This document shows, in pieces, positions 42,575 to 47,351 of a DNA stretch of 64,000 nt; position 1 is the first letter of the stretch, and each line of letters opens with the position of its first letter. Position numbers and translations under genes: made by a program. The stretch spans positions 31,341-95,340 of the forward strand of contig JAOTTP010000003.1 of NCBI GenBank assembly GCA_029864405.1. Direction: 5' to 3'. The notes under the pieces are model-generated. The model was not told the DNA's origin. It made no database searches and saw only the letters and a program-made list of their open reading frames with translations. This stretch comes from Nitrospirota bacterium. GTDB taxonomy: Bacteria > Nitrospirota > Nitrospiria > Nitrospirales > UBA8639.

Positions 42575-43201
42575 TTAATCCTCCAGAGGAATGGTGACGA
42601 CAATGGCCCCCATGAGGTCACCTTTTCTGAAGTCACGCTTGGGGCTTAAGGGGTGAGCATTATGGCAGGTAGTACAGGTGTCGTTAATCGCTTTATCGGC
42701 ATAAATGGCCTGAAACAAGCGTTTTTTCCCGGTGGAGACGATTCCACGTTGAGGCGTATCAGGATTCAGCGAAAGTTGTTCCAAGGCCTTTCGTTCGAAA
42801 TCCGTTGCAGGTCCATTCCTTCGATAAATTGGCCACAAGCTAATTAAACGGAATCGAATGCCGTGACCTGATTCCGCGACCAATTTGCTGGAAATATGGA
42901 GAAACTGCGCAGGAAGGGGAATGGCATTTTTATTTTCCCAATCCTCTCTCGCCTGCACGACGCCTTGGTCCTTCATTCTCTTCACGATATGCGTTGTGTA
43001 GACTTGGCGATCCGCCTCTACGATGGAATGAATATAGTCTGCAACTTTCTCCGGTGACAGATTTTTCATGCTGTTGGATTCAGCTCCTTGGAGAGATTTG
43101 GATTCACCCGCTTGGAGAGATGATGAAGGGATGATTCCAACAAGGAGGGTCGAAAGAAAAAACATACGTAATCCAGTCCTGATACCCTGTAGGCTTGTCA
43201 T
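42575..43201 (-). CDS. DUF3365 (Tll0287-like) secreted monoheme c-type protein
   Basis: 208 residues from the ATG at 43201, preceded by AAGGAG; the ATG overlaps the stop of the upstream kinase (ATGA), so translation is coupled. MFFLSTLLVGIIPSSSLQA is a signal peptide. The mature domain has a PAS-like DUF3365 outline: AQFLHISSKLVAESGHGIRFRLISLWPIYRRNGPATDFERKAL, then a single heme c motif CTTCH near residue 182, and the closing GDLMGAIVVTIPLE. Family members such as cyanobacterial Tll0287 bind heme in a PAS-like fold and are proposed redox or gas sensors. I infer a sensory accessory role for the overlapping kinase. Confidence 0.9.
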   Translation of the reverse strand: MTSLQGIRTGLRMFFLSTLLVGIIPSSSLQAGESKSLQGAESNSMKNLSPEKVADYIHSIVEADRQVYTTHIVKRMKDQGVVQAREDWENKNAIPLPAQFLHISSKLVAESGHGIRFRLISLWPIYRRNGPATDFERKALEQLSLNPDTPQRGIVSTGKKRLFQAIYADKAINDTCTTCHNAHPLSPKRDFRKGDLMGAIVVTIPLED

Positions 43202-45663
43202 GACGTTGAACTCCTTTCCTTTGCAAGGGTGCCATTCGAAACCGGTAAGGTGATCAAGCACGTCGTCCCCTGGTTCGCTTCACTTTCCATTCGAATGTGT
43301 CCGCCTAATTTGTTGATAATCCGATAGGCCACGGTGAGTCCAAGGCCCGATCCTTCTCCCTGCCCCTTCGTGGTAAAAAAAGGATCAAAGACTCTTGGCA
43401 GATGGGTTGGGGAGATTCCGGTACCCGTGTCCTTAATGCGGATTTCCAGACCTTGTCCTGAAGTTTCCGTCGAAATATCAAGCTTCCCACCTTGTTTCAT
43501 CGCTTGAAACGCATTGGTGAAGATGTTGGTGAAAGCTTGCCTGAGTTCCAAGTCTTTTCCTTGTATGGGGGGGATGGGCCCCAGGTGAGTCTGTATGTCC
43601 ACCGGGACGGATGGGAAGAGATCCCTGGTCGTCGACAACGTTTGTTCCAAAATTTCATTGAGGTTAATGAGCGTTTGCCCTTCAGCCAATTGTTTTCCGG
43701 ACTGACCGGTAAAGTCGCGGACAACTGTAGCCATACGCTTTCCGTGTTGAACGATGCCCCTGGCGTATTCTTTGATTTGCTCGGGGTTGGTCTCCTCTTG
43801 TATCGCTTCGCCTAATCCAATGACTCCGACTAAAGGATTATTCAGCTCATGTCCAATCCCGGCACTCAGGACGCCAAGACTTGCGAGTTTCTCACCTTGG
43901 ATGACCCGGTCTTGAAGGATGCTTTCTTCCGTCGTATCTCGTAGCACCAGGCCGGCACTTGGTCCTCTTCCCGGGCGTGCCTGAACACCAAACCAACGGT
44001 ACCGGAATGTTCGTTGATTGACCCGAAGTTCCTGGCGATTGGTGCCTGATTGTGCCCAATTCGTGGGAACCAACGGATCTTGCAAAGCCGTGTTGGACGG
44101 AGTGGTTTTCGTGTCCTCTGAAGATGGAGGCCCCGTAACCTGGACAGCCTGCATTTCTTGTTTGAGCCGGTTTTGCGTAGAGGAATCCAAGGGAAGTATT
44201 TGGAAGAGTGGGAGGCCGATGACCTCGCCGTTGTTGACGGCAAAGGCTTCTTTGGAGGCTTTGTTCACATATTCGATTTGTTCGTCCTGACCGATCATGA
44301 GGACCGGGTCTGGCACATTATCCAAAATTTTAATGGTCGATTCCTCAAGGTATTTCACTTCTTGGGTTTTCAACTCAACTTGGCTTTCCAAGCCGGCGAA
44401 CTGTGAAGCCAGTTGTTGGTTCATGCGATTGACTTCATCAGCCAATTCCTCAATTTCATCTCCGGTGGACAATTTAAGAGGCTCGCGATATTCCCCCCTG
44501 CCGATTTGTTGGGCAGCTTCCTGAAGGCGACGAATGGGTGCGGTAATTCGATGGGCCGCTATATATCCCAAGGTGACGAGCAGCACGACTCCCAATAACC
44601 CAAAAGCCGCCGTCCATTTTAAAAAATGCTCTATGGGGGCAAAGACCTCTTCAGATGACTGCCAGACAAACATATGCCAGGACTGCCCAGTGGACATTTG
44701 AGTAATCTGGCGAGTATTGCTCAGGGGGGCGAATCCGATGATGGAGGATGCCGTGCCCCCATGCCCATCGCTTGGAGCTGGAGTCCATCCGGCATGCAGC
44801 GGGGTGACGAGGGGAATAAGCCGGGGGTCACTAATTGAGGTGCCCGTGGGAAGGATCGGGCAGCTCAAGACGACGCCACGGCTGTCAATGAGCATGACAT
44901 GACCGGTTTTGCCAAATCGAATAATGTCGATGGAAGGGGCAAAGAACTCCTTGGCGTCATAAATCCGTTGTAGGACGCCAATGGCTTCATACCGTAAGCT
45001 ATCCATAATGGGTAGCGCGAGAGTAAACGTATAGACTCCCCGTTGTGAATCAAACGCGACCTGGCCGATATACGGTTGACCGACTCCATTGTGGAACGCG
45101 CCTTTCCACCATGCTTCTTCTTGATGAAGATAGGGAACATCGGAATACAGGCTCGCGACGACCCGGCCTGCGCGATCGGTGATAAATAAGCCACGTGTGG
45201 CAGATCGGGTAATCACCGGAATCGGATGGCCCGGGTCCATAAAGATTCCCCCCATATGTTGTTTCAGGACCTCGGCAAATGGTCCTTCTACAATTCTTTG
45301 AAGGATATCCGCCTCCTTGGCATTCCAGGCTTCTTGTTCTTTTTCAAGGGTGAGAGCCAGCTCTTGAGGAGTCAACTCACTGAGGGCATCGCGGGTGCGT
45401 TCGAGTCGTTCAATGATTTTGACATCGGTTGTCATGAGGGCCGTGCGGACGAGTTCATCAGCAATAACCAGATCAATCTTCCTGGCCGTTTCGGTTGCGA
45501 GCGCTTCAAAGCTTGATCCATTAACCTCCCGAATTTCCTGGGTGCCCTGGTAGAAAGCCAGCACGAGTCCGATGACCAAGGGGAGGGTGCCGACCAGCAG
45601 CATGGACAAGACCAGTTTTTTGGTCAGTCCTTTTTTCCTGTTGACGGGTTTAGGGCTATCCAC
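43198..45663 (-). CDS. Cache-HAMP-PAS sensor histidine kinase
   Basis: 821 residues. The first membrane helix is at about 15-37 (LVLSMLLVGTLPLVIGLVLAF). A large periplasmic double-Cache-like region follows to about 340 (RGLFITDRAGRVVASLYSD, WWKGAFHNGVGQPYIGQVAFD, GHVMLIDSRGVVLSCP). The second helix lies near 345-368 and HAMP to about 420. A coiled coil and a PAS domain (ILDNVPDPVLMIGQDEQIEYVN) come next; the PAS carries a Ser/Thr/Pro-rich insertion. HisKA contains LSAGIGHELNNPLVG, His at about 605, and the ATPase has GSGLGLTVAYRIIN. It overlaps the upstream kinase gene by 8 bases and the downstream heme gene by 4. No receiver is attached. Confidence 0.93.
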   Translation of the reverse strand: MDSPKPVNRKKGLTKKLVLSMLLVGTLPLVIGLVLAFYQGTQEIREVNGSSFEALATETARKIDLVIADELVRTALMTTDVKIIERLERTRDALSELTPQELALTLEKEQEAWNAKEADILQRIVEGPFAEVLKQHMGGIFMDPGHPIPVITRSATRGLFITDRAGRVVASLYSDVPYLHQEEAWWKGAFHNGVGQPYIGQVAFDSQRGVYTFTLALPIMDSLRYEAIGVLQRIYDAKEFFAPSIDIIRFGKTGHVMLIDSRGVVLSCPILPTGTSISDPRLIPLVTPLHAGWTPAPSDGHGGTASSIIGFAPLSNTRQITQMSTGQSWHMFVWQSSEEVFAPIEHFLKWTAAFGLLGVVLLVTLGYIAAHRITAPIRRLQEAAQQIGRGEYREPLKLSTGDEIEELADEVNRMNQQLASQFAGLESQVELKTQEVKYLEESTIKILDNVPDPVLMIGQDEQIEYVNKASKEAFAVNNGEVIGLPLFQILPLDSSTQNRLKQEMQAVQVTGPPSSEDTKTTPSNTALQDPLVPTNWAQSGTNRQELRVNQRTFRYRWFGVQARPGRGPSAGLVLRDTTEESILQDRVIQGEKLASLGVLSAGIGHELNNPLVGVIGLGEAIQEETNPEQIKEYARGIVQHGKRMATVVRDFTGQSGKQLAEGQTLINLNEILEQTLSTTRDLFPSVPVDIQTHLGPIPPIQGKDLELRQAFTNIFTNAFQAMKQGGKLDISTETSGQGLEIRIKDTGTGISPTHLPRVFDPFFTTKGQGEGSGLGLTVAYRIINKLGGHIRMESEANQGTTCLITLPVSNGTLAKERSSTS

Positions 45664-46711
45664 TGGACACCATATCTTCTATAGGAGGAATGGTGGGGAA
45701 GGACAATCGGATCGTGGTGCCTTTCCCTTGTTCGCTTTCGACTTGAAGGTCCCCATGATATTTTTTGACAATCGTTTTGACGTTATAGAGCCCAAGGCCT
45801 GTCCCTTTGCCCTTAGGTTTCGTTGAAAAGAAGGGATTGAAAATCTTTTCGAGGTGTTCGGGGGAAATGCCACATCCAGTATCGCTGATCGCAATCTGAA
45901 CCGTTCCATTGGAATGTGAGGTGGTAATGGTGAGGCTGCCTTTTTCTTCCATGGCATGAATCGCGTTGGTAATCAGGTTGATAAATACCTGGAGGATTTC
46001 TTCGGGTTTAGCCTGGACCGTCAAGCCATTTTGGTAATGTTTCTGAACCGTAATTTCCCGAAATTTTGTCGCAAACCTGGAAATGCTTAAGGCTTCATCC
46101 AGCCTAGCATGGAGGTCGATTCTTTCCAGTTCCTGATGACTGGACGTGCGGACATAGTCAGTGATATTTCGTGAAATGGCTTGAATGCGTTGAGCCGCCT
46201 CATGGATACTGGCTGCATGGAGTCGAATGCGTTCGAGATTGTTTTCCTCTTGAATTTCTTCGGCCATCGCCAAGATGACATACAGAGGGTTATTAATGTC
46301 ATGGGCAATCCCTGAGGCAAAGGTTCCCATGCTGGCTAATTTTTCCGATTGAAACAGTTGGGCTTGAATAAAGGTTTGATGTTGGATCAACTCTGAGAGC
46401 ACTTTGGCGGCGGTCCCTCCAAGCACTTCAGCCCCAGGGTGTTTGTGCTCCGTAATGTATGAAGGAACAGTCGGATCTCCGGTCACGTCAATGATCAAAT
46501 TCAACGTGCCTTCTTGAATAAGCTTCAGGGGGTGAGAGACTGTCGGGATATTGTGAAGCCTGGCGAGTTGAAAACCCAACGCGTGAGGATTTGTGTCGGC
46601 AATGCCCAATAGACGGATATGGGGTAAGTTGAGAAATGATTCCAACATGGCTGTTCCCCCTTTGCCGGCCCCGAGAATGGAAATAGTAATTGGGGAATCA
46701 TCAGTCGACAT
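45656..46711 (-). CDS. Histidine kinase with N-terminal Rossmann dinucleotide-binding domain
   Basis: 351 residues from the ATG at 46711 (GGAGGGATTCC upstream); the 28-residue ORF-track extension is not domain-like. Residues 8-110 form a Rossmann fold: ITISILGAGKGGTAMLESFL (GxGxxG), then LLGIADTNPHALGFQLA with an acidic residue ending strand 2, which favours NAD over NADP, and LIIDVTGDPTVPSY. HisKA follows with GTFASGIAHDINNPLYV, His at about 137, and the ATPase has GTGLGLYNVKTIVKKY. It is soluble. It precedes and overlaps the Cache kinase, so the two are coexpressed. I infer sensing of NAD redox state or a bound metabolite. Confidence 0.88.
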   Translation of the reverse strand: MSTDDSPITISILGAGKGGTAMLESFLNLPHIRLLGIADTNPHALGFQLARLHNIPTVSHPLKLIQEGTLNLIIDVTGDPTVPSYITEHKHPGAEVLGGTAAKVLSELIQHQTFIQAQLFQSEKLASMGTFASGIAHDINNPLYVILAMAEEIQEENNLERIRLHAASIHEAAQRIQAISRNITDYVRTSSHQELERIDLHARLDEALSISRFATKFREITVQKHYQNGLTVQAKPEEILQVFINLITNAIHAMEEKGSLTITTSHSNGTVQIAISDTGCGISPEHLEKIFNPFFSTKPKGKGTGLGLYNVKTIVKKYHGDLQVESEQGKGTTIRLSFPTIPPIEDMVSSG

Positions 46712-46809: not shown

Positions 46810-46836
46810 AAAGCCCTATCCTGAGGATAGGGCTTT
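46810..46836 (-). terminator. Perfect hairpin between receiver and kinase genes
   Basis: AAAGCCCTATCCT and AGGATAGGGCTTT are perfectly complementary around a single central base. On the minus strand it follows the receiver gene and ends in TTTA rather than a long T-run. Probably a terminator or attenuator separating the receiver from the kinase operon. Confidence 0.65.
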
Positions 46837-46919
46837 ACTCGATATACCATAGTCTTCTTCATGGGGAACCATTCTCCCGCCAGAAGAACCTCGGAATCTG
46901 AACAATCAGTCCCGTCAGG

Positions 46920-47351
46920 TTACAGGCGATTGAGATCTCGTTTTTCCATGGCATTCGCCACGGACTTAATTAACTTTTCTTTTTCAACAGGTTTGACCAG
47001 GTAATCCACGATCCCCTGCTTGAGGAATCCGGTGGCCATTTCCATGTCCGGGAATCCCGTGAGTACAATGAGTGGAACACGGGGGTATTGTTGCTGGAAG
47101 TAGTTAATGGCTTCCACGCCGTTGATTTTTGGCATTCGAATATCGGAAATAATGACGTCCAACATTAAAGGATTTTCGCCTTTCCCCACTTCCTGGATGG
47201 CTTTTTCCCCATCCTCAGCCTCGATGACATCATATCCGGCCTTTTCGAGGGTCATCCGCACGACTTTTCGGACATCAGGTTCATCGTCCACGACGAGAAC
47301 CAGCCCGTTGGTTTTGTGTCCTCCGAACATTGCTGCAGTTGTGTCTGCCAT
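46920..47351 (-). CDS. Receiver-only response regulator next to the paired kinases
   Basis: 143 residues, essentially one CheY-like receiver from about 15 to 135. LVLVVDDEPDVRK is the acidic pocket, phospho-Asp70 lies in VIISDIRMPKINGV, Thr is in LIVLTGFPD, and Lys in YLVKPVEKEKL. No output domain. It is transcribed toward the two kinases with the hairpin at 46810 in between, so it is the natural phosphoacceptor for one or both. GGAGAAGC lies before the ATG. Confidence 0.92.
   Translation of the reverse strand: MADTTAAMFGGHKTNGLVLVVDDEPDVRKVVRMTLEKAGYDVIEAEDGEKAIQEVGKGENPLMLDVIISDIRMPKINGVEAINYFQQQYPRVPLIVLTGFPDMEMATGFLKQGIVDYLVKPVEKEKLIKSVANAMEKRDLNRL

Follow-up and report, generated by a model that had tools for sequence, protein, structure and literature searches.

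An overlapping gene pair for a Cache histidine kinase and a predicted exported monoheme DUF3365 protein, conserved within a four-gene signalling set of Nitrospirota: a candidate two-part periplasmic sensor

Results

Organization of the four-gene set

The window (the whole stretch of DNA that was analysed, 64,000 nucleotides from a Nitrospirota bacterium) carries four genes on the minus strand. In the reading direction, these encode a response regulator, a Rossmann (NAD(P)-fold) kinase, a Cache kinase and a DUF3365 protein. The features, in window positions, are as follows.

46920-47351, minus strand: receiver of 143 aa, a stand-alone response regulator lacking an output domain; open reading frame and Pfam
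45656-46711, minus strand: soluble histidine kinase, probably starting with the ATG at 46711, whose N-terminal part is a Rossmann domain of the NAD(P) type; Pfam and fold
46376-46711, minus strand: Rossmann domain with motif GAGKGG; fold model and structure match
43198-45663, minus strand: membrane histidine kinase, 821 aa, GTG start, TM-dCache-TM-HAMP-PAS-HisKA-HATPase; Pfam and hydrophobicity
44629-45552, minus strand: kinase ectodomain, residues 38-345, dCache_1; PF02743, E 2.8e-15
43211-43216, minus strand: Shine-Dalgarno-like AAGGAG inside the kinase gene, 9 nt ahead of the DUF3365 start codon; sequence
43198-43201, minus strand: ATGA, kinase stop overlapping the DUF3365 start; sequence
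42575-43201, minus strand: predicted exported monoheme DUF3365/Tll0287-like (sCache_heme) protein, 208 aa, ATG start; PF11845, E 2.5e-17, fold of 5b82 and 3b42
43109-43201, minus strand: likely signal peptide, DUF3365 residues 1-31; hydrophobic run followed by LQA-GES, helix 7-19 in the model
42911-42913, minus strand: Pro97 of the DUF3365 protein, at the alignment position of the axial Cys in Tll0287-type proteins; alignments
42662-42676, minus strand: CTTCH heme-attachment motif, residues 176-180 of the DUF3365 protein; sequence and alignment

A preliminary description of this locus had reported that the kinase stop overlaps the DUF3365 start, and the ATGA at 43198-43201 is indeed common to the kinase TGA (43200-43198) and the DUF3365 ATG (43201-43199). 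Both genes of the pair described there are real. The pair is incomplete, however, as it forms the second half of a set that also contains the receiver and the Rossmann kinase. The end of the Rossmann kinase gene overlaps the start of the Cache kinase gene by 8 nt. No DNA-binding regulator was found within the set by a Pfam scan of its proteins, and scans of the locus for promoters and terminators showed no clear enrichment relative to shuffled sequence. Between the genes for the receiver and the Rossmann kinase (window about 46810-46840) lies a strong hairpin, GCCCTATCC TCA GGATAGGGC, which is not a typical terminator.

The two kinases

The Cache kinase gave Pfam matches to dCache_1 (E 1.7e-14), HAMP, PAS_4, HisKA and HATPase_c. 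Hydrophobic segments at residues 19-37 and 347-365 flank an ectodomain of about 308 aa, and the dCache_1 match lies between them, in agreement with the big periplasmic Cache-like domain proposed earlier. The phosphoacceptor His motif is kept in all of the 170 kinases checked.

For the N-terminal domain of the Rossmann kinase, no Pfam family was found. Its high-confidence model (pLDDT 86) matches NAD(P)-dependent dehydrogenases, with a best E of 1.8e-5 and about 2.2 A over 99 columns. Judging from this fold and the GAGKGG motif, the kinase may bind and sense NAD(P).

The DUF3365 protein

PF11845 (Tll0287-like) was the sole family above its cut-off for the DUF3365 protein (64.1 bits; cut-off 24.1). 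The architecture is stand-alone, without fused TM and signalling domains. The protein has just two cysteines, both within CTTCH 176-180, and C176, C179 and H180 are invariant among 23 aligned relatives. From the CXXCH motif, a covalently bound heme c is predicted. In the structure model (pLDDT 71), a Cache-type fold with the heme insert ahead of the last strand was observed; the top structural matches were 5b82 (Tll0287) and 3b42 (Geobacter GSU0935), with modest TM-scores to 5b82 of 0.44-0.54. A search of PDB sequences with profile A1 gave no match, and a broader profile detected Tll0287 at E 0.00096. The preliminary description had called the product an exported c-type heme protein with a PAS-like fold. 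The likely signal peptide and the single CXXCH agree with the first part, and only the fold has to be renamed, since current classification places it among Cache domains (sCache_heme) and not among PAS domains (PMC12889525). Near the N-terminus (window 43060-43110), about 8 residues are duplicated in frame, a feature missing from relatives.

The same genome encodes a Tll0287-type DUF3365 protein with the axial Cys, located among small cytochrome c genes (L084; G000:C137). In a MAFFT alignment of the L084 group with the operon proteins, the axial Cys was placed opposite Pro97, and the pairwise match to the sequence of the Tll0287 structure (5b82) also set it against Pro97. These two comparisons were used for the position of the Cys because hhalign of the Cys and non-Cys groups spanned the C-terminal half only. 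A third, larger alignment shifts the Cys group slightly near Pro97; no alignment gives the operon proteins a Cys there. Furthermore, none of the 86 operon DUF3365 proteins has a further Cys after residue 40 beyond the two heme cysteines, and the 15-residue stretch that follows CXXCH in the Cys type is absent from the operon proteins. The lack of the axial Cys would fit a signalling heme rather than an electron-carrier heme.

Three residues were considered as the distal heme ligand. His71 and His102 were rejected, as neither is conserved. Of 83 sequences, 76 have Met and 7 have Leu at position 76, and Met76 as the distal ligand is possible but unproven.

Further DUF3365 gene arrangements were observed. 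At L067 (G000:C160), also in the same genome, DUF3365 is fused to HisKA and HATPase and a receiver gene adjoins, a fused counterpart of the split pair. Other DUF3365 paralogues are set apart from any kinase, some of them amid metabolic genes. At L066 (G000:C74:71000-81000), L070 and L075, another stand-alone DUF3365 gene adjoins a DUF3365-bearing chemoreceptor gene; at L066, these are followed by genes identified by eye as cheR, cheD and cheB. The first MCP of L066 gave no Pfam match to a Cache domain, and so no second Cache pair is proposed at that locus.

Conservation of the pair and of the set

The first collection comprised 396 Nitrospirota genomes, in which 114 strong matches to the kinase ectodomain were detected. 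In 106 of these, DUF3365 follows on the kinase strand at a near-constant downstream distance of 1416-1530 nt, and no DUF3365 match of at least 290 bits was found outside the kinase-downstream site in the 396 genomes. In the second collection (named genomes), the kinase lies immediately upstream at 77 of the 80 DUF3365 loci, and two of the three exceptions reach a contig edge. All four genes occur at 65 of the 80 loci, including those of N. moscoviensis and N. defluvii. The collections overlap in species and are not fully independent; in both, the adjacency that the preliminary description had proposed to look for is strongly conserved.

The order receiver, Rossmann kinase, Cache kinase and DUF3365 is kept in nearly all carriers (41 relatives), and the neighbouring peptidase and mscS genes vary across genomes where the four genes stay. 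The carriers all fall within related families of a single order. Thus, the set is inherited vertically. At L046 / L173, the genes for the receiver and the Cache kinase are intact, and the Rossmann kinase between them seems to be truncated.

Of 86 distinct pairs, 25 have a DUF3365 start that lies 4 nt within the kinase gene, 57 have one 13-109 nt within it and 4 have one past the stop; start codons were picked by homology, and the longer overlaps are therefore approximate. Since an overlap is kept in 82 of the 86 distinct pairs from related genomes, it is not due to chance.

Kinases without DUF3365

Eight of the 114 kinase matches have no DUF3365 neighbour: one is a recent loss and seven are in older lineages. 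In family f5, the receiver, Rossmann kinase and Cache kinase occur together without DUF3365, and in family f4 and genus g16 only the kinase and receiver are adjacent. In G236 (family f1), the set is otherwise intact and DUF3365 is gone, the sole recent loss among the main lineages. At L053 and L054 (family f4), the Cache kinase gene lies beside the receiver gene, in L053 near purine synthesis genes; neither genome gave a DUF3365 match at the thresholds applied. Because eight kinases occur without it, the Cache kinase apparently does not need DUF3365 and can work alone. From the gene contents of f4, f5, g16 and G236, the heme protein would most simply be an addition to an older kinase-receiver core, almost always kept once present.

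In kinases accompanied by DUF3365 (DUF+), conservation of the ectodomain equals or exceeds that of the catalytic core, which is unusual for a sensor domain. At a matched core identity of 0.45-0.50, the ectodomain identity was 0.52 for DUF+/DUF+ pairs, 0.45 for DUF+/DUF- pairs and 0.42 for DUF-/DUF- pairs, the DUF- kinases representing only about three independent lineages and one recent loss. The higher identity among DUF+ kinases would fit an extra constraint from the partner, although it is suggestive only. No relaxation of the ectodomain was detected in the kinase with the recent loss. Conservation among DUF+ kinases extends to 92 ectodomain positions; the older DUF- kinases all retain 54 of these, including the GHVMLID, C.LPTG and DGHG motifs. 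Tyr225 differs in all kinases without DUF3365 and was considered as a hint of an interface; it was rejected, as the difference is not significant with so few lineages.

Discussion

Proposed mechanism and alternatives

We consider it somewhat probable that the pair forms a two-part periplasmic sensor, in which a heme-c DUF3365 protein acts in trans on the dCache kinase as part of a signalling set of four genes. After export, the DUF3365 protein would carry a single c-type heme whose distal site is open or exchangeable. NO binding, or oxidation or reduction at the heme, would alter the contact of DUF3365 with the dCache ectodomain of the kinase, which would relay the change via HAMP and PAS to HisKA and then to the stand-alone receiver. 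The Rossmann kinase would probably feed the same receiver, so that the periplasmic heme state and the cytosolic NAD(P) state could be read together. Here we infer the heme loading, the DUF3365-kinase contact, the ligand, the direction of the signal and the shared receiver; as the signal, NO and redox appear about equally likely from the protein sequences. The kinases without DUF3365 (f4, f5, g16 and the recent loss) and the DUF3365 paralogues away from kinases count against the two-part sensor, as does the weak NO binding of the one stand-alone member studied, though that protein is of the Cys type (PMC12889525).

These kinases, together with the paralogues amid metabolic genes and the absence of a DNA-binding regulator from the set, would also agree with an output or house-keeping role: DUF3365 would be a periplasmic redox or NO-scavenging heme protein, co-made with the kinase that controls it and not in contact with it. 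We regard this as possible but rather unlikely, since the protein is without the axial Cys of the redox type, and the gene overlap, together with strict co-inheritance in more than 100 genomes, makes a closer link than would be required of a target gene. It is more doubtful still that the kinase senses a small molecule in its own dCache pocket, with DUF3365 only tuning the kinase or detecting another signal on behalf of other receptors. Domains of the dCache type usually bind ligands, and the 54 shared ectodomain positions are in line with this; the higher ectodomain constraint where DUF3365 is present argues against it. Finally, hitch-hiking of vertically inherited neighbours with no functional link could be read from the restriction of all carriers to related families of one order, but it is very improbable, because the peptidase and mscS neighbours change while the four genes persist and only one recent loss was detected among the main lineages.

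The two-part sensor can be extended to a broader proposal, which we offer tentatively and regard as rather less probable: the heme Cache protein may act in trans on the kinase Cache ectodomain and, with the NAD(P)-binding kinase acting on a common receiver, may compare periplasmic NO or redox state with cytosolic NAD(P) in nitrite oxidisers.

Comparison with known systems

In the literature searched, the coverage of which was incomplete, we found no account of a Cache kinase served by a separate heme Cache protein and no paper on this four-gene set. LuxP is a protein of the sugar-binding type. The LuxP/LuxQ system (PDB 2HJ9) combines an exported partner with a kinase that has a periplasmic Cache/PAS-like domain; two such proteins are co-encoded here, and the exported partner differs in being a heme Cache protein. 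In the NO signalling systems H-NOX/HnoK and NosP/NahK (PMC8846402), a stand-alone heme protein acts on a histidine kinase in trans, as proposed here. However, those systems are cytosolic and have unrelated folds, whereas the heme is expected here to be covalent and periplasmic, and DUF3365 does not belong to the H-NOX or NosP family. Geobacter GSU0582 and GSU0935 possess a periplasmic c-heme domain with an exchangeable distal site, occupied by water or Met; they bind NO and show a redox-linked spin change (PMC8396549). Unlike the operon protein, their heme domain is fused to a receptor.

A 2026 preprint (PMC12889525) classes the domain of DUF3365/Tll0287 as Cache, names it sCache_heme and splits the family into stand-alone redox proteins with the axial Cys and fused NO sensors. 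In it, a stand-alone Cys/His member is reported to behave as a redox protein that binds NO weakly, and a fused one lacking the Cys to retain NO as established NO sensors do. The operon DUF3365 protein shares the domain, CXXCH and fold of this family (PF11845; PDB 5B82, 3B42, 3B47), yet it is stand-alone without the axial Cys, and tied to a separate Cache kinase, neither fused nor free. It resembles Cluster 1 (Tll0287-type redox proteins, with His and Cys as heme ligands) in its stand-alone form and differs in the missing axial Cys; it resembles Cluster 2 (NO-sensing sCache_heme) in this missing Cys and differs in having no TM/signalling fusion. Thus, with a stand-alone architecture, a signalling-type heme site as predicted and a tie to a kinase, it breaks the rule given in the preprint. 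The set occurs in widespread Nitrospira-type nitrite oxidisers, including the cultured N. moscoviensis, whose NO and redox sensing is little known, and the operon pair offers a direct test of trans signalling by heme Cache proteins.
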